A DNA stretch of 64,000 nucleotides, taken from positions 171,819 through 235,818 of the forward strand of contig NZ_KB893750.1 in assembly GCF_000374165.1 (NCBI RefSeq), in the 5' to 3' direction. This DNA comes from Parafrankia elaeagni (GTDB lineage Bacteria; Actinomycetota; Actinomycetes; Frankiales; Frankiaceae). The position numbers were made by a program, and so were the translations under genes. Below the pieces are notes generated by a model. That model was not told the DNA's origin and made no database searches. It saw only the letters and a list, made by a program, of their open reading frames with translations. Shown piece after piece: positions 1,329 through 22,238 of this stretch. Every line of letters begins with the position of its first letter. Positions within the stretch are counted from its first letter, which is position 1.

Positions 1329-3590
1329 ATGGCTGATTCCGAGCGCCGCAGTGGGCGGAGCATCGCGGAACTGGCGGCGGCCGCCGCCTCGGTCGAGGTC
1401 CCGACAGCTGGGCTGTGCCGTGACCTCGCCCTGGCCCACGAGCGGGCAGGTGATCACACCGCGGCCGTGCGCTGGGCGCTGGCGCTGACCGACGCGGGAG
1501 GGGACCTCGCCGGCTGGACGGCAGCCGCCGGTGTGCTGCGCCGCGCGCTCCCGGCGGCCGACCTGCGGCTGCGGCCGGTGAAGGTCGCTGTGCTCGGCAG
1601 CTACACCACCGCGCAGTTCGCCGCGCTGCTGCCGCTGGCCGCGGCCCGCGCGGGCGTCGCCGTCGAGGTGTACGAGTGCGGCTACGGCCAGTACCGCCAG
1701 GAGGTGCTCGACCCCTCCAGCGGCCTGTACGGATTCGGCCCGGACGCCGTCGTCCTCGCGGTGCACGCCGGCGACACCGCGCTGCCGGCCTTCGCCGAGG
1801 ACCCCGACCAGGCGGTCCGCGCCGAGGCGGCCCGTTGGACATCGCTGTGGGAAATCATCGTCTCCCGGCTGGGCGCCCGCGTCATCCAGCACACCTTCGT
1901 CGTACCGGAGGTCGACCCGTTCGGCCACCTGGCCCGGCGCACGCCCGCGGCGCGTTCCTCGCTCCTCGCCGCGCTCAACACCGCGCTCGGCGAGGCCGCG
2001 GCCGGCACGTCGGCCTCAGGCACGTCGACCCCGGGCGCGTCGGTGGAGGGCGGGCCGGTGGAACGCGGGTTCGCCGGTGTGTCCTTCGTCGACTGCGAGC
2101 GCCTCGCCGCGACGGTCGGCAAGCGTGACTGGTTCGACCCCCGCTACTGGCACCGCGCCAAGCAGGCGGTTGCCCTCGGTCATGTTCCCGCACTGGCCCG
2201 GCACACCGCCGCCGTGCTCGGCGCCCAGCTCGGGGTCAGCCGCAAGTGCCTCGTCCTCGATCTTGACAACACTCTGTGGGGCGGGGTGCTCGGAGAGGAA
2301 GGCCTCGCCGGCATCGCGCTGGGCGACGGCCCGGTCGGGGAGGCCTTCAGCGCGTTCCAGGAGTACATCGCCCTGCTCCGCGACCGCGGCGTGATCCTCG
2401 CCGTGTGCTCGAAGAACAACGACGCTGACGCCCGCGAGGCCTTCGAGCGGCACCCCGCCATGCGGCTGCGGCTCGGCGACATCGCGATGTTCAGCGCGTC
2501 CTGGGACGACAAGCCGACCCAGATCCGCCGCATCGCGCACACGCTCGGCATCGGGCTGGAGTCGCTGGTGTTCGTCGACGACAACCCGGCCGAGCGTGAG
2601 GTGGTCAGGCAGCTGCTGCCCGAGGTCGACGTGATCGCGCTGCCGCGGGACCCCCACGAGTACGTGCGCGCACTCGCCGACTACCCGTTCTTCGAACCAG
2701 GCGTCCTCACGTCGGAGGACACCTCCCGCACCGAGCAGTACCGGGCCCGCGCCCAGGCGGCAGAGCTGGCTGCGTCGGCGTCCTCCCTGGAGGAGTTCCA
2801 CCGCGGGCTGGAGATGACCGCGACCGTGGTGCCGCTCGACGAGCTGACGCTGCCACGGGTCGTGCAGCTCATCGGGAAGACGAACCAGTTCAACCTGACG
2901 ACCCGGCGCCGGGGTGCGGCGGAGGTCGCCGAGCTGGCGGCTGATCCCTCGTCGGTCGTCCTCTGCCTGCGGCTGGCCGACCGCTTCGCCGACCACGGAC
3001 TGGTGGCAGTGGTGATCGCCCGCCGGCAGCGGGAGACCGGAGCCGCGGCTGTCGCCGGGGCCGGGGCCGGGGCCGGTGACAGTGCCGAGGCTGATCTGAC
3101 GGTGCTGGACGTGGACACCTGGCTGATGAGCTGCCGGGTCATCGGCCGCACGCTCGAGAACGAGATCGCCGGGCTGATCGTCGAGGAGGCTCGTCGCCTC
3201 GGGTGCGCCGCGGTGCGGGGCCACTACCTGCCGACGGCGAAGAACGCCCTGGTGGCGGATCTCTATCCCCGGCTGGGCTTCGACCCGATCGGCAGCCGCG
3301 GCAGCGGCGGCAGCGGCGAGGGCGGCGAGGGTGCGGACGGCGCTCCGGGGGGTGAGCGCACCGACTGGCTGCTGCCCGTGACGCACGCGCAGCGCAGTCC
3401 CGGCCTCATCCGGATCGTCGACGGCCGCCCGGCCGGTGACAGCCGGTGCGGGCCTGGCCGACAGGAACCTGGTCCCCAGCCACCGCGGTCGCGTGAACTG
3501 CCCGAACCCCGGCCGCACACGGTCGGGACCGCGGAGTCGAGTGCCTCGGCGCCAATCATGGAACGAGCGATGGAGGAGGTGGCCGGCTGA
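1329..3590 (+). CDS. FkbH-like HAD-superfamily protein (glyceryl-ACP forming type)
   Basis: A 753-residue FkbH/HAD-IIIC protein. FkbH enzymes dephosphorylate 1,3-bisphosphoglycerate and load D-glyceryl onto an acyl carrier protein. The N-terminal part (about 80-150, KVAVLGSYTTAQF ... EVLDPSSGLYGFGPD) matches the extra domain of long FkbH proteins. The HAD core starts near residue 308 with LVLDLDNTLWGGVLG (nucleophile DxDxT), followed by AVCSKNN and LVFVDDNPAERE. The C-terminal part is GNAT-like (DRFADHGLVAVVI; GRTLENEIAGLIVEEA) and has Cys602 in WLMSCRVIGR, the conserved FkbH position. The last 100 residues are low-complexity. Start: ATG 1329 with GGGGGAGGAA upstream. The stop overlaps the ACP start (TGATG), so the two are translationally coupled. 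No polyketide synthase is nearby. Confidence 0.88.
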   Translation: MADSERRSGRSIAELAAAAASVEVPTAGLCRDLALAHERAGDHTAAVRWALALTDAGGDLAGWTAAAGVLRRALPAADLRLRPVKVAVLGSYTTAQFAALLPLAAARAGVAVEVYECGYGQYRQEVLDPSSGLYGFGPDAVVLAVHAGDTALPAFAEDPDQAVRAEAARWTSLWEIIVSRLGARVIQHTFVVPEVDPFGHLARRTPAARSSLLAALNTALGEAAAGTSASGTSTPGASVEGGPVERGFAGVSFVDCERLAATVGKRDWFDPRYWHRAKQAVALGHVPALARHTAAVLGAQLGVSRKCLVLDLDNTLWGGVLGEEGLAGIALGDGPVGEAFSAFQEYIALLRDRGVILAVCSKNNDADAREAFERHPAMRLRLGDIAMFSASWDDKPTQIRRIAHTLGIGLESLVFVDDNPAEREVVRQLLPEVDVIALPRDPHEYVRALADYPFFEPGVLTSEDTSRTEQYRARAQAAELAASASSLEEFHRGLEMTATVVPLDELTLPRVVQLIGKTNQFNLTTRRRGAAEVAELAADPSSVVLCLRLADRFADHGLVAVVIARRQRETGAAAVAGAGAGAGDSAEADLTVLDVDTWLMSCRVIGRTLENEIAGLIVEEARRLGCAAVRGHYLPTAKNALVADLYPRLGFDPIGSRGSGGSGEGGEGADGAPGGERTDWLLPVTHAQRSPGLIRIVDGRPAGDSRCGPGRQEPGPQPPRSRELPEPRPHTVGTAESSASAPIMERAMEEVAG

Positions 3591-3826
3591 TGGTGCACGA
3601 GCGCCTCACCCAGGTCTTTCGGGAGATCTTCAGCGACGACGAACTGGTCGTCTCCGACACCACCACGTCGGACCAGGTTCCCGGCTGGGACTCCCTGGCC
3701 CACATCAACCTGATCTACGCGGTGGAGAGCGAGTTCGGCGTCCAGATTCCCGACGAGCGGCTGGGCTCGTTCGCGAATGTCGGTGAGCTGCGGACCTGCA
3801 TCGAGGAACTCAGCAGTGTCGGGTGA
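3590..3826 (+). CDS. acyl carrier protein
   Basis: A 78-residue carrier protein. The phosphopantetheine site is the serine in VPGWDSLAHINLI (Ser35), at the start of helix 2, followed by a typical acidic helix 3 (DERLGSFANVGELRTCIEEL). Its start overlaps the stop of the FkbH gene by one base, so its natural partner is almost certainly that enzyme, which would load it with a glyceryl group. The next gene overlaps its 3' end by 11 bp. Confidence 0.92.
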   Translation: MVHERLTQVFREIFSDDELVVSDTTTSDQVPGWDSLAHINLIYAVESEFGVQIPDERLGSFANVGELRTCIEELSSVG

Positions 3827-4376
3827 GCGGCTTTCGCTGCGAGAGCAGCTACGCGAGGACAGGGCCGTCCACTACGGCTCCTGGCTGCACCCCGGCTACC
3901 AGGCGCTGGCCGTCCACCGGTTCGGCCGGTGGTGCCGGGAGCGCGGCGGGGTCGTCGGGCGGCTCGGCACGCTTGCCTTCAGGGCCGTGAACAACATCGT
4001 CATCCGTAACCTGCACGGCACCGAGATCTCCGTCGATGCGGCGATCGGGCGTCGGGTGCTCATCGGACACCACCAGGCGCTCATGATCCCGCGCCACTGC
4101 GTGATCGGCGACGACACGATCCTCCGCCACGGAGTGACCATCGGCTACGCGAACCCGCAGGCGCCCCCCGACGCCGTCCCGAAGATCGGCTCCCGGGTGG
4201 ACATCGCGCCGGGTGCCCACCTGATCGGGCCGATCACCATCGGCGACGACGTCCGGATCGGGCCCGGCTCGATCGTGACCGTGGACGTCCCGGCCGGGTC
4301 GACCGTTTTCGCCGCACCGGCGCGGATCATGCGTCCGGCGGCTGCTGCGGCTGCGGCTGCGGCTCCTCCCTCGTGA
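3816..4376 (+). CDS. serine acetyltransferase-like hexapeptide-repeat acyltransferase
   Basis: A 186-residue left-handed beta-helix acyltransferase related to CysE. The N-terminus (LREQLREDRAVHYGSWLHPG) has a CysE-like helical cap. The rest has hexapeptide repeats such as IGRRVLIGHHQALMIPRHCVIGDDT, with HH and H residues where serine acetyltransferases have catalytic histidines, and the loop GYANPQAPPDAVPKIGSRVD. I chose GTG 3816 because GAGGA precedes it at good spacing. Overlap with the ACP gene suggests that the acyl donor is the carrier protein rather than acetyl-CoA; this is inference. The C-terminus ends in an alanine run. The alternative is a plain serine O-acetyltransferase. Confidence 0.82.
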   Translation: MSGERLSLREQLREDRAVHYGSWLHPGYQALAVHRFGRWCRERGGVVGRLGTLAFRAVNNIVIRNLHGTEISVDAAIGRRVLIGHHQALMIPRHCVIGDDTILRHGVTIGYANPQAPPDAVPKIGSRVDIAPGAHLIGPITIGDDVRIGPGSIVTVDVPAGSTVFAAPARIMRPAAAAAAAAAPPS

Positions 4377-4614
4377 GTGACGAGGCCATCGTGACGCCGT
4401 GCCGCTCCGCCTCTGCGGACCGGGTCGGGCCTGGTCGCATCGGGGGAGTGCCGACCCTGCCGTGACCGCGAGCGCCGCTGGCGCGATGTCGGCGCCGCGG
4501 GTGAGCGCACGATTCCAGCCGCCGCGCAGGACACGACGAGGATGACCGTGGTTGCGACGCCGTTTGAGACACCTGCTGGCGGGCGGTGGCCGGGCTGTGG
4601 CGGGCCCGGCCACC

Positions 4615-12494: not shown

Positions 12495-13886
12495 TCAGTG
12501 AACGGCGAGGAACGTCAGCAGGTCGGCCCTGGTCAGGATGCCGGCGGGGTTGCCCTCGTCGAGGACGAGCACGGCGGGGTTCTCCCCCAGCGCGGTCACG
12601 AGGACCGACAGCGGTTCGCCGGCACCGATCGTCGGCAGCGGCGCGGACATGTGGTCGCCGACCGGCGCGTCCACCGTGGTGCGGTCGGCGAAGACGGCAT
12701 CGAGCAGGTCCCGCTCGGCCACCGAGCCGGCGACCTCGGCGGCCCGCACCGGCGGTTCGTGCCGCACCACCGGCATCTGGGAGATGCTGTACTCACGCAG
12801 GTAGGAGATGGCCGCCCCGACGGTCTCGGCGGGATGCACGTGGACGAGGTTGGGCGGCCCGGCGGTCTGGCTGGTCTTGTGCGCGAGCACCGAGGCGACG
12901 GTCGGCTCGTCCGACGGCGGCTCGAGGAAGCCGTTGTCGTACATCCACTCGTCGTTGAAGATCTTGGAGAGGTAGCCGCGGCCGGAGTCGGGCAGCAGCA
13001 CCACGACGCAGCCGTCGGCCGTGCCGGCGGCGTCCAGCTCGCGGGCCACCCGCAGCGCGGCGACGACCGCCAGCCCGCAGGAGCCACCGACGAGGATGCC
13101 GGCGCGGCGAGCGATCTCCCGGGTCATCAGGAAGGAGTCGCGGTCGCTCACGGCCTCCACCCGGTCGACCACGGACTTGTCGTAGGTCGACGGCCAGATG
13201 TCCTCGCCCACTCCCTCGACGAGGTAGGGCCGGCCGCTGCCGCCGGAGTAGACCGAGCCCTCCGGGTCGGCGCCGACGACCTGGACGGCACCGTCGCTGA
13301 CATCCTTGAGGTAGCGGCCGGTTCCGCTGATCGTGCCGCCGGTACCGATGCCGGCCACGAAGTGGGTGACCAGGCCGTCGGTCGCGCGCCAGATCTCGGG
13401 GCCGGTGGTGGCCCGGTGCGCGGCCGGGTTGTCGGGGTTGGAGTACTGGTCGGGGCTCCAGGCGCCGGGCGTCTCACGCTGGACCCGCCGCGCGACCGAG
13501 TAGTACGAGCGGGGATCGTCCGGTGCGACGGCCGTCGGGCAGATGATCACTTCCGCGCCGTAGGCCCGCAGGACCGCGCGCTTCTCCTCGCTGATCTTGT
13601 CGGGCATGGTGAACACACAGCGGTAGCCGCGCCGCGCGGCCATCATGGCGAGACCGACGCCGGTGTTGCCGCTGGTCGGCTCGACAATGGTGCCGCCGGG
13701 GCCGAGCCGGCCGTCTGCCTCGGCAGCAGCGATCATCGACAGGGCGATCCGGTCCTTCACCGAACCGCCCGGGTTCAGGTACTCGAGCTTGCCGAGCACC
13801 GGCGTCCTGGTGTCGGCGATCGTCGGTGTCAGCCGCACCAGTGGCGTGTCACCGACCAGATCGGTGACATGGTCGTAGACGTTCAT
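12495..13886 (-). CDS. cbs: cystathionine beta-synthase
   Basis: A 463-residue fold-type II PLP enzyme fused to a pair of CBS domains. The PLP lysine is in NPGGSVKDRIALSMI; the phosphate-binding loop region is EPTSGNTGVGLAM; GIGTGGTISGTGRYLKD is the second cofactor loop. The C-terminal 120 residues hold two CBS motifs, which in the family sense S-adenosylmethionine or adenylates. The enzyme condenses serine (or acetylserine) and homocysteine into cystathionine. There is no N-terminal heme-binding extension as in the mammalian enzyme. It is upstream of metB in one leftward operon. Confidence 0.93.
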   Translation of the reverse strand: MNVYDHVTDLVGDTPLVRLTPTIADTRTPVLGKLEYLNPGGSVKDRIALSMIAAAEADGRLGPGGTIVEPTSGNTGVGLAMMAARRGYRCVFTMPDKISEEKRAVLRAYGAEVIICPTAVAPDDPRSYYSVARRVQRETPGAWSPDQYSNPDNPAAHRATTGPEIWRATDGLVTHFVAGIGTGGTISGTGRYLKDVSDGAVQVVGADPEGSVYSGGSGRPYLVEGVGEDIWPSTYDKSVVDRVEAVSDRDSFLMTREIARRAGILVGGSCGLAVVAALRVARELDAAGTADGCVVVLLPDSGRGYLSKIFNDEWMYDNGFLEPPSDEPTVASVLAHKTSQTAGPPNLVHVHPAETVGAAISYLREYSISQMPVVRHEPPVRAAEVAGSVAERDLLDAVFADRTTVDAPVGDHMSAPLPTIGAGEPLSVLVTALGENPAVLVLDEGNPAGILTRADLLTFLAVH

Positions 13887-14076: not shown

Positions 14077-16620
14077 TCAGGTCTGGACGGGTCCCACCCC
14101 GGCCGTCATGGCGTTCACGATCGTGGTGTTGTCCCGGATCGTGGCGTCGTCCCGGGCGACGAAGTGGGCCCGGCTCGTCACGTCCCGCTGGTTCTCCATG
14201 TAGTACTTCATGAACGCCGCGACGGCCGGTCGGCGCAACGCCTCCTTGCTGGCGTAGATGTACAGCGGCTTGCACAGCGGCATGTACATCCCGGTGCCCG
14301 CGGTGACCGCGTTCGGTTCCACGCAGCCGCGGCCGGCGTCGAGCTGGACGGCGCGCACCTCGTCCGCAGCCGCCTGGAAGTTCGAGTAGTCCATGAACCC
14401 GATGGCGCCGCGGGCGTACTCGATCTCCGCCGGCACCTCGTCCAGCTCGACCTCCTGGTACTGGCGGGTGTTGTCGGAGGCGCCGGTCATGCTGGCGAGG
14501 AAGACCTTGGCGTGGACGGTGCTCGGTGCGGGGCCGACGAGCCGTACCGGCTCGGCCGGGAAGGAGGGATCGACCTGGTTCCAGCTGGTGACGGCGGAGT
14601 CCCGCTTCCACAGCGAGCCGATCTGCGCCGTGGTGAGGCACTGCGCCCAGGTGTTCTCCCTGGACACCACGATCGGCAGCAGGTGGTGCGCGATCTCGAA
14701 TCCGACCACCTTGTCCTTGCAGGCCTGGTCGGTCAGCGCGAACGATGCCCCGGCGATGTCGGCCTGGCCGGCGCAGAGCTTGGTGAGGCCGTCGTCGGTG
14801 TCGGTCGCGTTCACCTGGACGGTGACGCCCTTCTGCGCCTCGCGGAACATCGCGTACGCGGTCCCCGTGATGGGTGCGACCTCGGCGGAGCCGGTCGCGA
14901 TCACCGTGTTGGGGCCGGCCGGCACCGTGGTCCGGCTCGCGGTGGCGTCGTCGGCGCTGATCCCGGCGGCCTGCTCGGCGGAGCGCATCGAGTCCGCCGG
15001 GAGCTGGGGGTGCTGGTCGATGGTCGACGGCGGCAGCGGTCCGGTGTCGGCGGCGGTGATGGCGGCGGGGTCGCTCCCGTCGTCCGCGAGAACGAGGCCG
15101 AGAGTCACGCTGCCGGCGACGAAGACGACGAAAGCCGCGGCGGCGGCGAGGAGCCGGCGCGTCGACCCGAACGACCCGAACGACCCGAACGGCCGGGTCC
15201 CTGGCCGTGGCCTGCTACCCGGGCTTCCCGCCGCGGGCCCACCGGCCGCGGGCCCGGCGGTGCCTGCCGGGGGCTGGTGACCGGCAGCTGTCGCGCGCTC
15301 CGTCAGCGCGGTGAGTGCGGTGACCGGCGCCACGGGCTCGCCACCCGTGCCAGCGAGGCCACCCGTGCCAGCGAGGCCACCCGCGACGGCACCGGGCGGG
15401 ACGTCGACCGGCGAGCTCACTGCCGGCGGCCGGCTCACCGGCGGAATACTGGGCGGCGGGGTGGTCACGTAGGCCGCCGGTCCGAGCACCACGGTCTGGG
15501 AGCCGGCGGGCTCGGCCGGGCTCTCCGCCGCGGCGAGCAGCGCCGCACCCAGCGCCAGGTCGGAGTCGGCCTCGGTCCCGCGGCGGCCGATGCCGCCGAG
15601 TGATGCGTCGAGCAGCCTGCCGACGAGCGGGAGGCGCGCTCCCGGGCCGCGCATGACCAGGAGCGACAGGTCCTCCGGCGTGGCCGGAACCGAGCGGATG
15701 GCCCGGGCGAGGGCGCGCACGGCATCCTCGATCATCGGCCGGACGAGGGTCTCGTACTCGTCCCGGGTGACCGTCACGCTGATCGCGTCGCCGGTACCGG
15801 AATCGGCGGCGCTCACCTCGATCCGGGCGCTCTCCTGGACGACCAGCTCCTCCCGCGCCGCCGAGCACGCGGCCAGCAGGGGGCCGGATGCCGGTGCCGA
15901 CACCGGTGATGTCGTCGATGCCAGGGGTGGTGCCGGAACCGGAGCCGGTGGCGACGCGGTTTCCGCCGCGGCGGCAAGCACGTGGGTCCGCAGCAGCTCG
16001 TCCAGCATCGAGGTGGTCACGTCGGAGAGACCGACCGGGCCGCCCGCGACCACGAACCCGGCTGGCATGGCCGCGTGCACGGCTGCCTCGAACCAGCCGG
16101 CGCCCAGGTCGAACGTGCCCACATAGCTGCCTGGGGTGGCCCTGCCAGCCCGGTTGAACAGGGCCGCGGACGCTTCGGCCGCGGTGCGCACGGTGAGCGC
16201 GACGTCGGCCTCGACCCGGGCCAGCGCGTCCGCCAGGCCTTCGCGCCGGCGCCGCGGCCAGCTGCCGGGGACGACCACCAGCACCAGGTCCGGTGCTGTG
16301 CCGCGGGCGGTGGTGACCGTCTCCACCAGCCACGACAGGTAGCGCGCCACCAGCGCCGAGGCGCTGTAGCCGACGCCGCCGACGAGAATGGGAGTGGGAT
16401 CGCCGAGCCGTTCGACGAATCGTTCCGCGATATGGCCCTGGTCGGACCGGGCGAGCCTGGCGGCGGCCGGGCCGCCGCGGGCGGTGCCGTCAGGGCTCAG
16501 GTGAAGAATCGTGGGCACCGCCGCCGATGTTCCGATCGGAACGAGGCTCGGCCATCCTGCCTCGGCGACCGCGACGGTTGTTTCGGATACTCCCAGATCG
16601 ATTCCGAGCTGATACCCCAT
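14077..16620 (-). CDS. Hsp70-like ATPase / transmembrane / PstS-like substrate-binding fusion
   Basis: An 847-residue protein in three parts. Residues 1-350 are an actin/Hsp70-type ATPase: phosphate-1 loop GYQLGIDLGVSETTVAVAE, phosphate-2 FDLGAGWFEAAVHA, connecting helix RTAAEASAALFNRAG, adenosine motif VMRGPGARLPLVGRLL. A Pro/Gly-rich linker leads to one membrane helix near residues 487-511 (LLAAAAAFVVFVAGSVTLGL). Residues 568-847 are a phosphate-binding-type periplasmic domain: ATGSAEVAPITGTAYAMFRE, LCAGQADIAGASF, TSWNQVDPSFPAEPVRLVGP. No Hsp70 peptide-binding domain is seen. The expected topology is ATPase inside, solute-binding domain outside. No Pst permease genes are adjacent. Start: ATG 16620 after GGGGGGAAAG. 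Its function is unknown; transmembrane sensing of an anion is one idea. Confidence 0.85.
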   Translation of the reverse strand: MGYQLGIDLGVSETTVAVAEAGWPSLVPIGTSAAVPTILHLSPDGTARGGPAAARLARSDQGHIAERFVERLGDPTPILVGGVGYSASALVARYLSWLVETVTTARGTAPDLVLVVVPGSWPRRRREGLADALARVEADVALTVRTAAEASAALFNRAGRATPGSYVGTFDLGAGWFEAAVHAAMPAGFVVAGGPVGLSDVTTSMLDELLRTHVLAAAAETASPPAPVPAPPLASTTSPVSAPASGPLLAACSAAREELVVQESARIEVSAADSGTGDAISVTVTRDEYETLVRPMIEDAVRALARAIRSVPATPEDLSLLVMRGPGARLPLVGRLLDASLGGIGRRGTEADSDLALGAALLAAAESPAEPAGSQTVVLGPAAYVTTPPPSIPPVSRPPAVSSPVDVPPGAVAGGLAGTGGLAGTGGEPVAPVTALTALTERATAAGHQPPAGTAGPAAGGPAAGSPGSRPRPGTRPFGSFGSFGSTRRLLAAAAAFVVFVAGSVTLGLVLADDGSDPAAITAADTGPLPPSTIDQHPQLPADSMRSAEQAAGISADDATASRTTVPAGPNTVIATGSAEVAPITGTAYAMFREAQKGVTVQVNATDTDDGLTKLCAGQADIAGASFALTDQACKDKVVGFEIAHHLLPIVVSRENTWAQCLTTAQIGSLWKRDSAVTSWNQVDPSFPAEPVRLVGPAPSTVHAKVFLASMTGASDNTRQYQEVELDEVPAEIEYARGAIGFMDYSNFQAAADEVRAVQLDAGRGCVEPNAVTAGTGMYMPLCKPLYIYASKEALRRPAVAAFMKYYMENQRDVTSRAHFVARDDATIRDNTTIVNAMTAGVGPVQT
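15340..15375. repeat. 18-bp in-frame tandem repeat
   Basis: Two perfect 18-bp copies plus a partial third inside the linker of the Hsp70-like fusion gene. They encode the Gly/Leu/Ala/Thr-rich repeat GGLAGT. Confidence 0.8.
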
Positions 16621-16820: not shown

Positions 16821-17201
16821 CTATGGCTCCTCGACCGGGACGATGTCCTTTCCGAGGGGCAGCAGCGAAACCGGAATGAGTTTGAAGTTGGCCAGGCCGA
16901 GCGGTATCCCGATGATCGTCAGGCAGAGCGCGATGCCGGTGGTCAGATGCCCGAGCGCCAGCCACCAGCCGGCGAGCAGGATCCACAGGATGTTGCCGAT
17001 CAGTGACGCGCTTCCAGCGTTCGGCTTGTCCACCACTCTGCGTCCGAACGGCCACAGGGCGTAGTTGGCCATACGCAGCGAAGCGATGCCGAACGGAATG
17101 GTGATGATGAGGATGAAGCAGATCAGCGCGGCCAGGGCGTAGCCGATCGCCAGCCACACTCCGCACAGCACCAGCCAGATCACGTTGAGTAGGATGCGCA
17201 T
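16821..17201 (-). CDS. yccF: YccF-family inner membrane protein
   Basis: A 126-residue membrane protein of the YccF family. It shows the duplicated layout: helices LLNVIWLVLCGVWLAIGYAL and LICFILIITIPFGIASLRMA, then a similar second half, NILWILLAGWWLALGH and CLTIIGIPLGLANFKLIPVS. The repeated I-P-F/L-G motifs are diagnostic. The biochemical role is unknown. The ATG at 17201 follows GGGAGG with a rather long spacer. It reads toward the fusion gene but a strong hairpin separates them. Confidence 0.92.
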   Translation of the reverse strand: MRILLNVIWLVLCGVWLAIGYALAALICFILIITIPFGIASLRMANYALWPFGRRVVDKPNAGSASLIGNILWILLAGWWLALGHLTTGIALCLTIIGIPLGLANFKLIPVSLLPLGKDIVPVEEP

Positions 17202-17842
17202 CGATGTCGCCGCCTCCCTGGGTCGTGCGCTCAGGTGTGCTCATGGAACTCCGTGGAGGCGGGGCAGGTGCCGCCCGCGCCGTTCTCCGGCACGGGAGCC
17301 GCCCTCCGCGGCCGGGTTCAGGTCGGTCCTGGGGCACGCGACCAAGACATTCACCGGCCCGGAACTCCTGCCCCGGATGGACCTCCCCGGACGGGTCGAG
17401 AGCCGTTCGGCCCGCCTTACCACGGTCACCCGCAGTGCGGGTGGGCCCGTCGGGTGGCGGTGGCCGTGTTCAGGCCCCCGAGCCGCGGCCCCTTTCCGCC
17501 TCCCTGTTGTCTTTTCCGTGGGCAGACGCGATCGCAGGCGCCCGCGCGGCGTGGTGCTCCTCACAGCTCGGGTGCGGCGCTGCCGGCCTCATGGTGCTTT
17601 CCGGGCATGGTCGCGGTGCCTGCATGCCCCGTTCTCGGGCCGCCAAACGATGGCGGGACGGCAATCGTGCCGGTGGCGCGTATGGGCTGGGGACCACCCG
17701 TGGCGCGCAGACTGGAGTACGGTTTGCGGCAGTTGATGAAATAGACCGTTTTGTCCGTTTGACAACACGACGTGAGCAAGCGGTGCCGGTGAATGAGTGG
17801 CAACGCGAAAGCGGTACTCCACGGGCGGGACTGAGGTATCCG
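17202..17842. other. 641-bp divergent intergenic region
   Basis: This lies between yccF and the GGDEF/EAL gene. No supported gene is seen. CACCCGCA-G-TGCGGGTG (17427-17443) is a perfect 17-bp palindrome and could be an operator or hairpin. The last 120 bp are AT-richer, with TTGACA at 17760-17765, and probably hold the promoter of the rightward gene. Confidence 0.4.
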
Positions 17843-19975
17843 GTGACGATCGAGACCGAGACGGCGGAGCTGGTGGACCAGTGGTTCGCCGAGATCACCG
17901 CGGTCGATCTCCTGCCGCTCACCGCCGCGGACGCCCGCGCCTGGCTGGCACGCCTGGCGGCGGAGCTCCTCCGGGCGGTGCGCGCCGAGCCGTTCCGGCC
18001 CGAGATCGGCTACGAGACCGGTGCCCGGCTCGTGCACGGGCAGGTGATCTCCGGTGAGGCGCTGGGCCGGACCGTGCGGCTGCTCGGCCGCCAGCTGGCC
18101 ACCCTGGCCCATCGGACCGACCCGGCCCGGCCGGCGTCGGCAGCCGGCCCGGTGGTTCTCGCCGGGCGGATCGCGGACCTGCTGGGCGAGCTCGTACGAG
18201 GCCACACGGAAGCCCTCCGGGAGCGGACCCGGGACGGCCACGCCGCCGTCCGCCGGGCAGATCTCGGTGCCCGCGCCCACGCCGAGCGGGCACAGCGGAT
18301 CTGGCAGCGCAGGCTGGACGCAGTCCTGAGCGGTGCCTCGCTGGGCATGCTCGTCGCCGACCGTACCGGGCGGATCGTCGAGGCGAGCGACTCCGCCCTG
18401 GACCTGCTCGGCCTGGCCGCGCACCGCCCGCCGACGGCCTGGCCGCTGCGTGAAATCGTCCACCCGGCGGACCGGGAGGTCGTCGGGCGGCTGTGGCGGG
18501 AGGCCCGCCGCGGGCGTTCTCGCGCCGAGTGCCGCATTCTGCGACCCGACGGGACGCCGATGTGGGTGGCGATGACCCTGTCGACCACCCAGGGCGGTGC
18601 CGGCGACTGGTTCGGTGTCGCCATGCTCGAGGACATCACCGAGCGCCGCCGGCTGCAGGAGGAGATCCGGCTGCACGCCCGGCGCGACGCGCTGACCGGG
18701 CTGGCGAACCGGACCGCGTTCCTCGACAGCCTGCAGGCAGCGTTCCGGACCGCCGGGCCCGCGACGCGGATCGGCCTGTGTTTCCTCGACCTCGACCGGT
18801 TCAAGATGATCAACGAGGGGTTCGGGTACGAGGCGGGCGACCAGCTGCTCATCGAGGTGGCCCGCCGGCTCGACCGGGTTGTCACCGCGTCGCCGCCCGC
18901 GGGCACCGTGGCCCGGATGGGCGGTGACGAGTTCATGATCCTGGTGCCGGACAGCGCCGGGATCGACGCGGTCACCGGCATCGCCCGACAGGCCCTGACC
19001 GCCCTGCGTGACCCCGTCCGCGTCGACGGCCGGGACCTGCCGGTCACCTGCAGCATCGGTGTGGTCGAGATGGCCGTCGCCGAGACCCGGCCCGCCGATC
19101 TCATCGCCGCCGCCGACGCCTCGCTGACCTGGGCGAAAAGCGGAGGGAAGAACCGATGGACGGCGTTCGACGCCGACCGGGGCACCCGGGAGGCGACCCG
19201 GGGCCTGCTGTCCCGCTCGATGGGCCCCGGCCTGGCCCGAGGCGAGTTCTCGCTCGTCTACCAACCGATCGTCGACCTCGGCGGCGGTGCGATGGCCGGT
19301 GCCGAAGCGCTGCTGCGCTGGGACCACCCCCGGCTCGGGCCGACCCGTCCCGGTGAGTTCATCGACCTGGCCGAGGACACCGGCTTCATCGTCCAGCTCG
19401 GGGAGTGGGTGCTCGAGCGGGCGTGCGAGACGGCGAGGGACTGGCCGGCGCACATGTTCATCAGCGTCAACCTCTCCGCCCGCCAGCTGCGTGAGCCGGG
19501 CCTGGTCGACGTGGTCGAGGGCATCCTGGCCCGCACCGGTCTGCCGCCGGAGCGGCTCCAGCTCGAGCTCACCGAGACCGTGCTCATGGACTCCGGCGGT
19601 CAGCAGCTCACCGCGCTGCACGGGCTGAGCACGCTCGGCGTGCGCATCGTCATCGACGACTTCGGCACCGGCTGGTCGAACTTCGCCTACCTGTCGACCA
19701 TGCCGGTACGCGGGCTGAAGCTCGCCGGCCTGTTCGTCGCGAAACTCGGCCAGGGCACCGAGCCGAGCCGGGACGACCACCTGGTCGAGGCGATCGTGGA
19801 GTTCGCCCGCAAACTGCGGTTGTCGGTCACCGCCGAGGGCGTGGAGACACCTGGGCAGGCCGCGGCGCTGCGCGCGTTCGGCGCCGACCTGGGCCAGGGC
19901 CACCTGTTCGGCGAACCGGCCCGGGCCGACGAGTTCACCGCGACTTTGCTGCGCCAGGCCTTCGCCGCCACCTGA
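17843..19975 (+). CDS. PAS-GGDEF-EAL cyclic-di-GMP turnover protein
   Basis: About 710 residues: an N-terminal helical region (1-150), a PAS domain (about 157-270, LGMLVADRTGRIVEASDSAL), a GGDEF domain (about 275-430, FLDLDRFKMINEGFGYEAGD and ARMGGDEFMILV) and an EAL domain (about 450-700, GAEALLRWDHP, ISVNLSARQLRE, ELTETVLM, IDDFGTGWSNFAYL, TAEGVET). The GGDEF site is intact; no RxxD inhibitory site is seen just before it. In the EAL domain the usual K-I-D motif reads LKLAGLF, keeping the lysine but not the aspartate, so phosphodiesterase activity is uncertain. Start: GTG 17843 has GAGG 6 nt upstream; GTG 17783 or 17789 are alternatives. The cue is unknown. Confidence 0.88.
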   Translation: MTIETETAELVDQWFAEITAVDLLPLTAADARAWLARLAAELLRAVRAEPFRPEIGYETGARLVHGQVISGEALGRTVRLLGRQLATLAHRTDPARPASAAGPVVLAGRIADLLGELVRGHTEALRERTRDGHAAVRRADLGARAHAERAQRIWQRRLDAVLSGASLGMLVADRTGRIVEASDSALDLLGLAAHRPPTAWPLREIVHPADREVVGRLWREARRGRSRAECRILRPDGTPMWVAMTLSTTQGGAGDWFGVAMLEDITERRRLQEEIRLHARRDALTGLANRTAFLDSLQAAFRTAGPATRIGLCFLDLDRFKMINEGFGYEAGDQLLIEVARRLDRVVTASPPAGTVARMGGDEFMILVPDSAGIDAVTGIARQALTALRDPVRVDGRDLPVTCSIGVVEMAVAETRPADLIAAADASLTWAKSGGKNRWTAFDADRGTREATRGLLSRSMGPGLARGEFSLVYQPIVDLGGGAMAGAEALLRWDHPRLGPTRPGEFIDLAEDTGFIVQLGEWVLERACETARDWPAHMFISVNLSARQLREPGLVDVVEGILARTGLPPERLQLELTETVLMDSGGQQLTALHGLSTLGVRIVIDDFGTGWSNFAYLSTMPVRGLKLAGLFVAKLGQGTEPSRDDHLVEAIVEFARKLRLSVTAEGVETPGQAAALRAFGADLGQGHLFGEPARADEFTATLLRQAFAAT

Positions 19976-20027: not shown

Positions 20028-20115
20028 ACCCCGCTGCCTGACGCGGGCTCGCCCGCCGGCCGCGATGTCGGATTCCTGCTGGACCTGGCCGGCTCCGCGC
20101 GCGAATCCTGGACAG

Positions 20116-21744
20116 GTGCCCACCCCCGACGAGCAGCTGCGGGCGGCGGGCGCCACGGGTCCCGTGGCGCCGCTGCCGGACCCCGAGCTGTGCGCGCGCG
20201 CCGTGCGGTCCCGCGATGCCCGCTTCGACGGGTGGTTCTTCGTCGCGGTCACCTCGACTGGCATCTACTGCCGACCCAGCTGCCCGGCGAGACCGCCACG
20301 CACCGAGAACATGCGCTTCCATCCGACCGCCGCGTCGGCGCAGCGCGCTGGCTTCCGGGCCTGCAAGCGCTGCCGTCCCGATGCCAGCCCCGGGTCCCCG
20401 GCCTGGAACCACCGGGCGGACGTGGTCGCCCGGGCCGTGCGACTCATCGCGGACGGCGTCGTCGACCGCGACGGCGTCCCCGGGCTGGCCGTCCAGCTCG
20501 GGTACAGCATCCGGCAGGTCGAGCGCCAGCTGCTGGCCGAACTCGGCGCCGGCCCGCTCGCGCTCGCCCGCGCGCAACGCGCGCAGACCGCCCGGCTCCT
20601 GCTCGAAACCACGACCATGAGCATGGGCGACGTCGCGACAGCCGCCGGCTTCGGCAGCATCAGAGCCTTCAACGGGACGGTGCGCGAGGTCTTCGCGACC
20701 GCCCCGGGTGACCTGCGGTCGTCAGCCATGGCGATCTCACCCACCACGGCCGGCTCACCCACCACGGCCACCTCGGCACCCACCACGGCCACCTCGGCAC
20801 CCACCTCGGTGGTGGCGCCCACCACCACGGCGAGGTCGTCCGCTCCGGCGACGTCCTCGCTGACGGTGCGCCTGCCGTTCCGCGGTCCACTGCATCCCGA
20901 CGAACTGTTCGGGCATCTCGTCGCGACGGCCGTCCCGGGTGTGGAGGAGTGGCGCGACGGCGCCTACCGCCGCTCCCTGCGGACGCCGCACGGGTACGCG
21001 ATCGTCGCGCTGCGGCCACTGCCGGACCAGATCGCCTGTCGGCTCTCCCTCACCGACATGAGGGATCTCGGCCCGGTCATCGCCCGCTGCCGTCGGCTCC
21101 TCGACCTGGACGCCGATCCCGAGGCGGTCGACAGCCAGCTCGCCGGTGACGCCGCGCTGGCTCCGCTGATCGCCCGTGCCCCGGGTCGGCGGGTGCCGCG
21201 CACCGTCGACGCGGCCGAGTTCGCGGTGCGTGCGGTGCTCGGGCAGCAGGTGCCGGTCGCCGCGGCCCGCCGGCTTGCCGCCCGGCTGGTCCAGGCTGCC
21301 GGCCAGCCGATCCACGACCCGGACGGGGGACTCACCCATCTGTGGCCGAGGACCGTCGAGCTTGCCCGGCTCACCGCGGACGCCCAGGTGCCCGCCATGT
21401 CGGCGGCGCGGCGACGGACCCTGACCGCGCTGGTCGCGACCCTCACCGCCGGTGAGATCGAGCTCGGCGCAGGCGGTGACTGGGCGCGAAGCAGGGCAGC
21501 CCTGGCGGACCTGCCCGGAATCGGCCCGTGGACGATCGAGACCATCGCCATGCGGGCCCTCGGCGACCCGGACGCCTTTCCCGCCGAGGATCTGGGTGTC
21601 CGGCGGGGTGCGGCACGCCTTGGGCTGCCCACCGGCCGCGGCGCGCTGCTCGCCCGTGCCGAGGCCTGGCGGCCCTGGCGGGCGTACGCCGTCCAGCACC
21701 TGTGGGCACTGCAGGGCAACGCGCGAGGAGAGGAAGAGCAGTGA
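20116..21744 (+). CDS. alkA: Ada-type regulator / DNA-3-methyladenine glycosylase II fusion
   Basis: About 542 residues. The N-terminus is an Ada metal-binding domain (RFDGWFFVAVTSTGIYCRPS, then CP and FRACKRCRP: four zinc-binding cysteines, one of which accepts methyl from phosphotriesters). An AraC-type helix-turn-helix follows (GYSIRQVERQLLAELGAGPL). After a Thr/Ser/Ala-rich linker with a 21-bp tandem repeat (20757-20798) comes an AlkA glycosylase domain with the helix-hairpin-helix LPGIGPWTIETIAMRALGD and the catalytic aspartate in FPAEDLGVRRG. It removes alkylated purines and probably activates its own operon. GTG 20116 is chosen; ATG 20065 is possible. It overlaps ogt by 4 bp. Confidence 0.9.
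   Translation: MPTPDEQLRAAGATGPVAPLPDPELCARAVRSRDARFDGWFFVAVTSTGIYCRPSCPARPPRTENMRFHPTAASAQRAGFRACKRCRPDASPGSPAWNHRADVVARAVRLIADGVVDRDGVPGLAVQLGYSIRQVERQLLAELGAGPLALARAQRAQTARLLLETTTMSMGDVATAAGFGSIRAFNGTVREVFATAPGDLRSSAMAISPTTAGSPTTATSAPTTATSAPTSVVAPTTTARSSAPATSSLTVRLPFRGPLHPDELFGHLVATAVPGVEEWRDGAYRRSLRTPHGYAIVALRPLPDQIACRLSLTDMRDLGPVIARCRRLLDLDADPEAVDSQLAGDAALAPLIARAPGRRVPRTVDAAEFAVRAVLGQQVPVAAARRLAARLVQAAGQPIHDPDGGLTHLWPRTVELARLTADAQVPAMSAARRRTLTALVATLTAGEIELGAGGDWARSRAALADLPGIGPWTIETIAMRALGDPDAFPAEDLGVRRGAARLGLPTGRGALLARAEAWRPWRAYAVQHLWALQGNARGEEEQ
20757..20798. repeat. 21-bp in-frame tandem repeat in alkA linker
   Basis: Two perfect 21-bp copies and a partial third encode the Thr/Ala/Pro/Ser linker between the Ada/AraC half and the glycosylase half. 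In-frame unit length suggests linker length can vary without loss of function. Confidence 0.8.
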
Positions 21745-22238
21745 CCCGTCACACGCACACCGTCATCGACAGTCCGATCGACCCGCTCACCCTGGTGGCG
21801 AGGGATGGCGAGATCGTCGGCCTGTTCATGTCCGGCGGACGTCACCTTCCCGACCCGGCCTGGTTCGGCGACCGCGACGACGCGGCCTTCGGTGACGCGG
21901 CCCGCCAGCTCGACGAGTACTTCGGCGGGGGTCGGACGGCCTTCGACCTGCCGCTGCGGCCGGCCGGCACGGATTTCCAGCGGCGGGTCTGGGCGGCGCT
22001 GCGCGAGATCCCCTACGCGGTGACGATCTCGTATGGGGAACTGGCACGGCGGATCGGCCAGCCGAGTGCGTCGCGCGCCGTCGGGCTGGCCAACGGCCGG
22101 AACCCGATCGGGATCGTCGTCCCCTGCCACCGGGTGATCGGCGCGAACGGCAGCCTCACCGGCTACGGCGGCGGTCTGCACCGCAAGAGCCGGCTGCTGG
22201 TGCTCGAACAACGCGCAGCGGGCGTCTCGCTGCTGTGA
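21741..22238 (+). CDS. ogt: methylated-DNA--protein-cysteine methyltransferase
   Basis: A 165-residue O6-alkylguanine-DNA alkyltransferase. The acceptor cysteine is in NPIGIVVPCHRVIGANGSLT, followed by GYGGGLHRKSRLLVLE; the DNA-binding helix region is FQRRVWAALREIPYAVTISY. It transfers alkyl groups from O6-guanine to itself in a suicide reaction. The GTG start overlaps the alkA stop (GTGA) with AGGAAGAG upstream, so it is coupled to the glycosylase in one alkylation repair operon. Confidence 0.95.
   Translation: MTRHTHTVIDSPIDPLTLVARDGEIVGLFMSGGRHLPDPAWFGDRDDAAFGDAARQLDEYFGGGRTAFDLPLRPAGTDFQRRVWAALREIPYAVTISYGELARRIGQPSASRAVGLANGRNPIGIVVPCHRVIGANGSLTGYGGGLHRKSRLLVLEQRAAGVSLL

Follow-up and report, generated by a model that had tools for sequence, protein, structure and literature searches.

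In the Hsp70 protein DnaK of E. coli, Lys70 and Glu171 are catalytic residues, and DnaK numbering is also used below for Asp8, Asp194 and Thr199. In yeast, Ssz1 is part of a J-protein complex at the ribosome; it carries a peptide-binding part but neither a membrane helix nor a PstS-like domain. This member of the ribosome-associated complex binds ATP without hydrolysing it, which makes it a precedent for an Hsp70 domain working in a complex without hydrolysis (PMC7083937). HSP70-domain proteins lacking a peptide-binding domain are also described from actinobacterial and firmicute conflict systems, a different setting (PMC7159879).

Two further systems are closer to the gene studied here. Actinobacterial single-helix membrane Hsp70-like proteins (mostly from Pseudonocardia: L007-L010, L016, L017, L019-L021; in the genome under study, L117) have a similarly shortened nucleotide-binding domain starting with MGYQLGID, a Pro-rich linker and one helix. 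They retain Lys70, Glu171 and Thr199 (in L117, motifs read by eye), whereas the fused copies described below lack Lys70 and Glu171, and they have no PstS-like domain (L007, L008, L009 and L117 by Pfam, the others by eye). PstS of the TIGR02136 type, with 4jwo as the nearest structure, is the closest known counterpart of the fusion's outer domain. PstS is a lipoprotein with an intact pocket, marked by the signatures GSST, SGTGGG, SR and SGT, whereas in the fusion the PstS-like domain follows an inner domain and a membrane helix that anchors it, and its pocket residues are replaced.

The gene lies in a window of 64,000 nucleotides from Parafrankia elaeagni (the whole stretch of DNA that was analysed) and is a stop-free frame of 847 codons, its ATG preceded by a purine-rich stretch (Table 1). 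Using Pfam, HSP70 was matched at residues 248-369 and PBP_like_2 (PF12849) at 569-808, each above its cut-off. Among the NCBIfam models TIGR02136 (PstS family) scored 126.4 bits, short of the 206.6 set as its cut-off, and there were weak matches to several DnaK/HscA models. By sequence, the outer part came closest to the solved structure 4jwo (E 1.5e-52 with the A2 profile), and the inner part to chains of DnaK. The nucleotide-binding domain retains the full Hsp70 fold, which it shares with DnaK; the fusion differs from DnaK in its lost catalytic residues and in the absence of the peptide-binding domain, the HSP70 match ending at residue 369 and being followed by the linker and the helix. This helix is the only hydrophobic one in the protein. 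By the positive-inside rule the basic flank of a membrane helix lies on the cytoplasmic side, so the RR before the helix and the DDGSD behind it place the N-terminal part inside; the predicted topology has the Hsp70-like part inside and the PstS-like part outside. A full-length structure model reached a pLDDT of 50.2 and was set aside. No promoter or terminator pattern was found, and no tRNA was found in the window.

Table 1. Features of the fusion gene and its direct neighbours (positions in the window).
Feature	Position	Strand
Whole gene, 847 aa: pseudo-Hsp70, linker, membrane helix and PstS-like domain (window-type paralogue)	14077..16620	-
Hsp70-type nucleotide-binding domain, residues 1-363	15532..16620	-
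Cytoplasmic Pro/Ala/Gly-rich linker, residues 366-488	15157..15525	-
Thr376 in short conserved motif T-x-[VIL]-[ILV]; candidate phosphorylation site	15493..15495	-
Membrane helix, residues 493-511, RR before, DDGSD after	15088..15144	-
Outer PstS-like domain, residues 570-847	14080..14913	-
PALP enzyme with CBS domains (cystathionine beta-synthase-like), downstream neighbour; belongs to the locus but not to the system	12495..13886	-
YccF-domain protein, upstream neighbour	16821..17201	-

A scan of genome contigs yielded 26 loci related to the window gene. The copy of Parafrankia colletiae (L001) is 88% identical over residues 1-847, and the same domain order was found in L002-L006 and L025, all from Frankiaceae; L018 is truncated by a contig end. 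The remaining 18 loci, mostly from Pseudonocardia, have the N-terminal domain, and those readable in full mostly continue with linker and helix and lack the PstS-like domain. When 36 Frankiaceae genomes were surveyed, the outer domain was matched in 31 (E <= 1e-30), at 41 places, and in 26 of the 27 better assemblies; both domains stood in one frame at 33 of these places, in 27 genomes, seven of which coincide with L001-L006 and L025 (identical fused protein). Recurrence of the outer-domain match across the family and of the fused frame at 33 places shows that the fusion is no sequencing artefact. A frameshift or a pair of separate genes was considered and ruled out by the 33 co-linear fused frames. 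The Hsp70-like/PstS-like fusion in one gene is thus confirmed as real. An earlier note made from the DNA letters had described one gene joining an inner Hsp70-type domain, a single membrane helix and an outer PstS-type domain, with the peptide-binding domain missing, and this description was borne out throughout.

The fusion family is nearly universal in the Frankiaceae, which are known for members that fix nitrogen in symbiosis with plants. The earlier note had proposed a database search for the same domain order; outside the Frankiaceae, no fusion was found in 358 genomes of the class in which the three longest frames were checked, at most six candidates being scored per genome, so that a far-diverged fusion could escape. 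The outer domain was matched at E <= 1e-45 in 41 of the 358, with no more than 239.0 bits compared with at least 338.8 for complete fused copies. Refetched from stop to stop, the frames of G380, G253 and G204 were stand-alone PstS-like frames of 420, 323 and 394 codons, and the longer lengths first reported for them (1043, 647 and 717) were not reproduced; the other 38 matching genomes were judged by their reported frames, which at no more than 476 aa are too short for both domains. Since the class-wide matches are clearly weaker and the longest frames are stand-alone PstS-like proteins, the fusion is, within the genomes searched, a trait of the Frankiaceae. An order-level search merely repeated the Frankiaceae result. 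In a phylogenetic tree the fused copies formed one side of a single branch (SH-aLRT 96, by a quick method that gave long-branch warnings). The tree held 33 fused rows and left out eight of the 41 places, namely two stand-alone copies, one remnant, four in which the nucleotide-binding domain is incomplete, and L092, a second copy with its N-terminal part in another frame. No description of this architecture was found in the literature searched, most subscription papers lying outside the search; the earlier note knew of no function for the combination.

In the inner domain of the window copy, DnaK Lys70, Glu171 and Thr199 are replaced by V69, R145 and W176. Lys70 and Glu171 are missing in all 33 fused copies (29 aligned, 4 by eye) and retained in 9/9 unfused relatives, nine of the 18 unfused loci having been aligned for the catalytic residues. 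Thr199 is retained in 2 of the 29 aligned fused copies, Asp8 in 29/29 and Asp194 in 28/29. Nearly all fused copies have an acidic residue four positions past the lost Glu171, which could serve as its stand-in; in the 29-copy alignment the Glu171 column is shifted by some two positions, so the motif strings were read there, and the alignment with the unfused relatives gave a cleaner column. An active chaperone ATPase is unlikely on these residues, and the ATPase activity implied by the earlier note is not supported. The losses would instead predict a non-hydrolysing domain, in which the fusion would resemble Ssz1. We consider it very improbable that the protein is a membrane-tied chaperone still cycling ATP with altered residues: the full Hsp70 fold and the Asp8 and Asp194 of most copies fit this reading, but the peptide-binding domain, Lys70 and Glu171 are gone, and second copies with whole frames lack even Asp8 and Asp194. 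These are the Frankia second copies L091, L093 and L102, which read GISPG and YQLGSHW and whose Hsp70-type domains probably bind no nucleotide. A separate locus of the P. elaeagni genome (L118, G000:C81:112500-117500) holds at 1516-3984 on the minus strand an 823-codon frame with an Hsp70-type domain (110.9 bits) and WD40 repeats, a second uncommon kind of Hsp70 fusion.

The outer domain was compared with seven plasmid PstS proteins as yardsticks, all adjoined by annotated pstC and pstA (7/7) and all but one by pstB (6/7). In the fused outer domains the Thr of GSST is replaced by Glu (E580 in the window copy), the Arg of SRP by Phe or Tyr (F627) and SGT by [ST]-V-[HQP] (T701-V702-H703), and the SGTGGG signature is absent. 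These pocket positions are replaced in 33/33 fused outer domains aligned and intact in 9/9 stand-alone references (7/7 plasmid PstS and 2/2 Frankiaceae homologues). The 33 outer domains are a set partly different from the 33 tree rows: the search pattern missed four second copies (L091, L092, L093 and L102), the contig-cut L107-L109 were included, and L104, L105, L106 and L110 were omitted from the invariance count. At those pocket positions that they cover, L104 and L110 show the same residues; L104 stops short of some. E580, H645, V702, D744, C783, K784 and R823 are invariant across the fused set, as are Cys 616, 634, 661, 766 and 783 in 33/33 outer domains. The former residues, new with respect to PstS, argue against simple decay of the outer domain.

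The rebuilt pocket is probably a non-phosphate one, and a phosphate sensor is unlikely. The earlier note had suggested an anion sensor coupling outside ligand binding to a chaperone-like ATPase inside, or a scaffold. For a phosphate or other anion sensor with an active ATPase speak the domain order and the match to the PstS family, and so do the retained Asp8 and Asp194 and the acidic residue near the lost Glu171. Set against these are the loss of Lys70 and Glu171 in every fused copy, the replaced pocket with Glu for the GSST Thr, and a separate true PstS encoded elsewhere in the genome, above the TIGR00975 cut-off. We regard this reading as highly improbable. A sensor or scaffold is still the best class of explanation, as that note proposed, while phosphate or other anion binding with an active ATPase is not supported.

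The genome holds two fusion paralogues, a primary copy (G000:C89) and the window copy, and the window copy is the diverged second one. Pairwise dN/dS between like copies was 0.09-0.36 in the nucleotide-binding domain and 0.13-0.28 in the outer domain, and up to 0.56 in linker and helix; like copies are under purifying selection. Window-type copies were found in four of the seven genomes of the genus and have an intact frame in three; in the fourth (L104, 6341-7651, G018) there is a remnant, a 437-aa frame in which both the inner and the outer part are shortened. For the window copy alone we also considered that it is a decaying duplicate without a function of its own. This would agree with its patchy presence and the remnant, with the loss of Asp8 in the sister copy L099, with dN/dS of 0.74 (inner) and 0.60 (outer) against the primary copy, and with values in the outer spacer of 1.10 against L001 and 0.78 against the G019 copy, both computed from few residues and changes. 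The intact frames in three genomes and the dN/dS of 0.36 (inner) and 0.18 (outer) against the P. colletiae copy and of 0.24 in both domains against the G019 copy speak against decay, which we consider quite unlikely.

L001/L089 show the same surroundings as the window copy and L099 shows part of them, and the YccF gene adjoins the window-type copy in the three loci holding it whole (window, L089 and L099). A PLP enzyme of Cys/Met metabolism is also found downstream, together with the PALP-CBS enzyme. By Pfam, these three nearest same-strand neighbours, one upstream and two downstream, are no Pst genes, in agreement with the earlier note and in contrast to the PstS yardsticks, which stand beside pst genes. 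Further frames in the window resemble, by eye, a PAS-GGDEF-EAL cyclic-di-GMP protein (17204-19975) and an Ada/AlkA fusion and a methylated-DNA methyltransferase (both within 20065-22238).

For the other loci the neighbouring genes were clustered, and some of them were identified by Pfam. The neighbourhood count covered the window and L074-L103 (31 of 38 stretches), omitting the remnant L104, the stand-alone L105 and L106, the contig-cut L107-L109 and the broken-frame L110. In 25 of the 31 loci a kinase/WD40 gene was found near the fusion. The proteins of this cluster combine a Ser/Thr kinase domain with a membrane helix and WD40 repeats, or show just the WD40 part in the stretch covered (Pfam was run on seven members). 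The kinase gene was not found in the stretch examined at the window copy, L089, L099, L088, L095 and L102. Its orientation varies, being on the same strand in the Pseudofrankia asymbiotica group (L003) and convergent in others. The closest spacing is 50 bases on the same strand, the L003 kinase frame ending at 4507 and the fusion starting at 4558; in L091 and L093 a second copy stands 124 bases upstream of the kinase/WD40 gene on the same strand. The usual kinase loop motif is HRDLK. The kinase domain could be aligned in 17 of the 26 cluster members (the rest are short, several cut by contig ends), and all 17 keep AIK, HRD and DFG, with the loop reading HRDLT. The idea that this neighbour is a pseudokinase was set aside, as AIK, HRD and DFG are present although the loop reads HRDLT. 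A pair of methylmalonyl-CoA mutase (by eye) and MeaB (Pfam, one member) genes was found in 19 and 20 of the 31 loci, and since it is nearly as constant, adjacency of the kinase is modest evidence and maybe plain synteny. The earlier note had mentioned neither this frequent kinase/WD40 neighbour nor the paralogue pair nor the near-universality in the Frankiaceae.

A possible target for such a kinase is the T-x-[VIL]-[ILV] motif directly behind the nucleotide-binding domain, whose Thr376 is invariant in the 8 rows of alignment A1. By a pattern chosen after viewing the sequences, the motif was found within the first 40 linker residues in 25 of the 28 fused copies scored, compared with 0/8 unfused relatives at the same place. 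Two more copies show it by eye, a few residues later or with a different next residue; L090 is without it, and among the fused copies L098 was not scorable. TxxI/L/V occurs 61 times in the linkers against 35.5 after shuffling, an excess of about what this one motif contributes. Thr sites of M. tuberculosis that lose phosphate on PknA depletion tend to have a hydrophobic residue (Leu, Val) at +3, a basic one at +4 and acidic residues before the Thr (PMC7164672). The string EEPYDVTAVIRPP in several copies appears to resemble this preference, which we treat as a lead.

The best-supported class of explanation is a membrane receptor or scaffold whose Hsp70 module does not hydrolyse ATP. Within it we tentatively prefer, at somewhat less than even confidence, a single-pass membrane pseudo-Hsp70 receptor or scaffold with a PstS-derived outer domain and a likely kinase partner in most genomes. 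The outer domain with its rebuilt pocket would sense or bind a ligand or an envelope component, and the inner domain, its hydrolytic residues lost, would be a pseudo-ATPase acting as a conformational relay or docking module, which may hold nucleotide in the primary copies and none in the most diverged second copies. In most genomes the likely partner would be the membrane Ser/Thr kinase encoded nearby, which has an outer WD40 propeller and may phosphorylate the conserved linker Thr motif. The kinase partnership is our preferred mechanism; it is unproved and by itself does not explain the window copy, which, as a diverged paralogue away from a kinase gene, may use partners encoded elsewhere or have a side role.

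MSMEG_0692/Rv0312 is presumably a relative of the fusion family. The interactome table of FhaA, which reads phospho-Thr, lists the Mycobacterium smegmatis membrane protein MSMEG_0692 as one-helix, ATP-binding and Pro/Thr-rich (PMC11898655). It lends some weight to an envelope scaffold, in which the outer domain would hold on to part of the wall or membrane and the inner one would bring cytoplasmic partners together, with no ligand sensing. The loss of catalytic and ligand residues under continued selection on both domains would suit such a scaffold, but the kinship of MSMEG_0692 is presumed, and the invariant polar residues E580, D744, H645, K784 and R823 are candidates for a kept pocket; we judge pure scaffolding unlikely. 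A more far-reaching version of the preferred receptor reading is doubtful: the protein would represent a new type of transmembrane receptor, with a pseudo-Hsp70 instead of a cytoplasmic kinase or cyclase, a PstS domain refashioned to bind a ligand other than phosphate, perhaps a cationic one (Glu580, Asp744 and Phe/Tyr627), and a role as co-receptor of the neighbouring Ser/Thr kinase.

Every fused copy examined has lost both active sites, yet selection keeps both domains, which makes the fusion a clear and testable case. If the preferred reading is true, bacteria would have put the Hsp70 fold to use without catalysis, as a module for signalling or scaffolding across the membrane, and a phosphate-binding domain would have been re-tooled for another ligand in the Frankiaceae.
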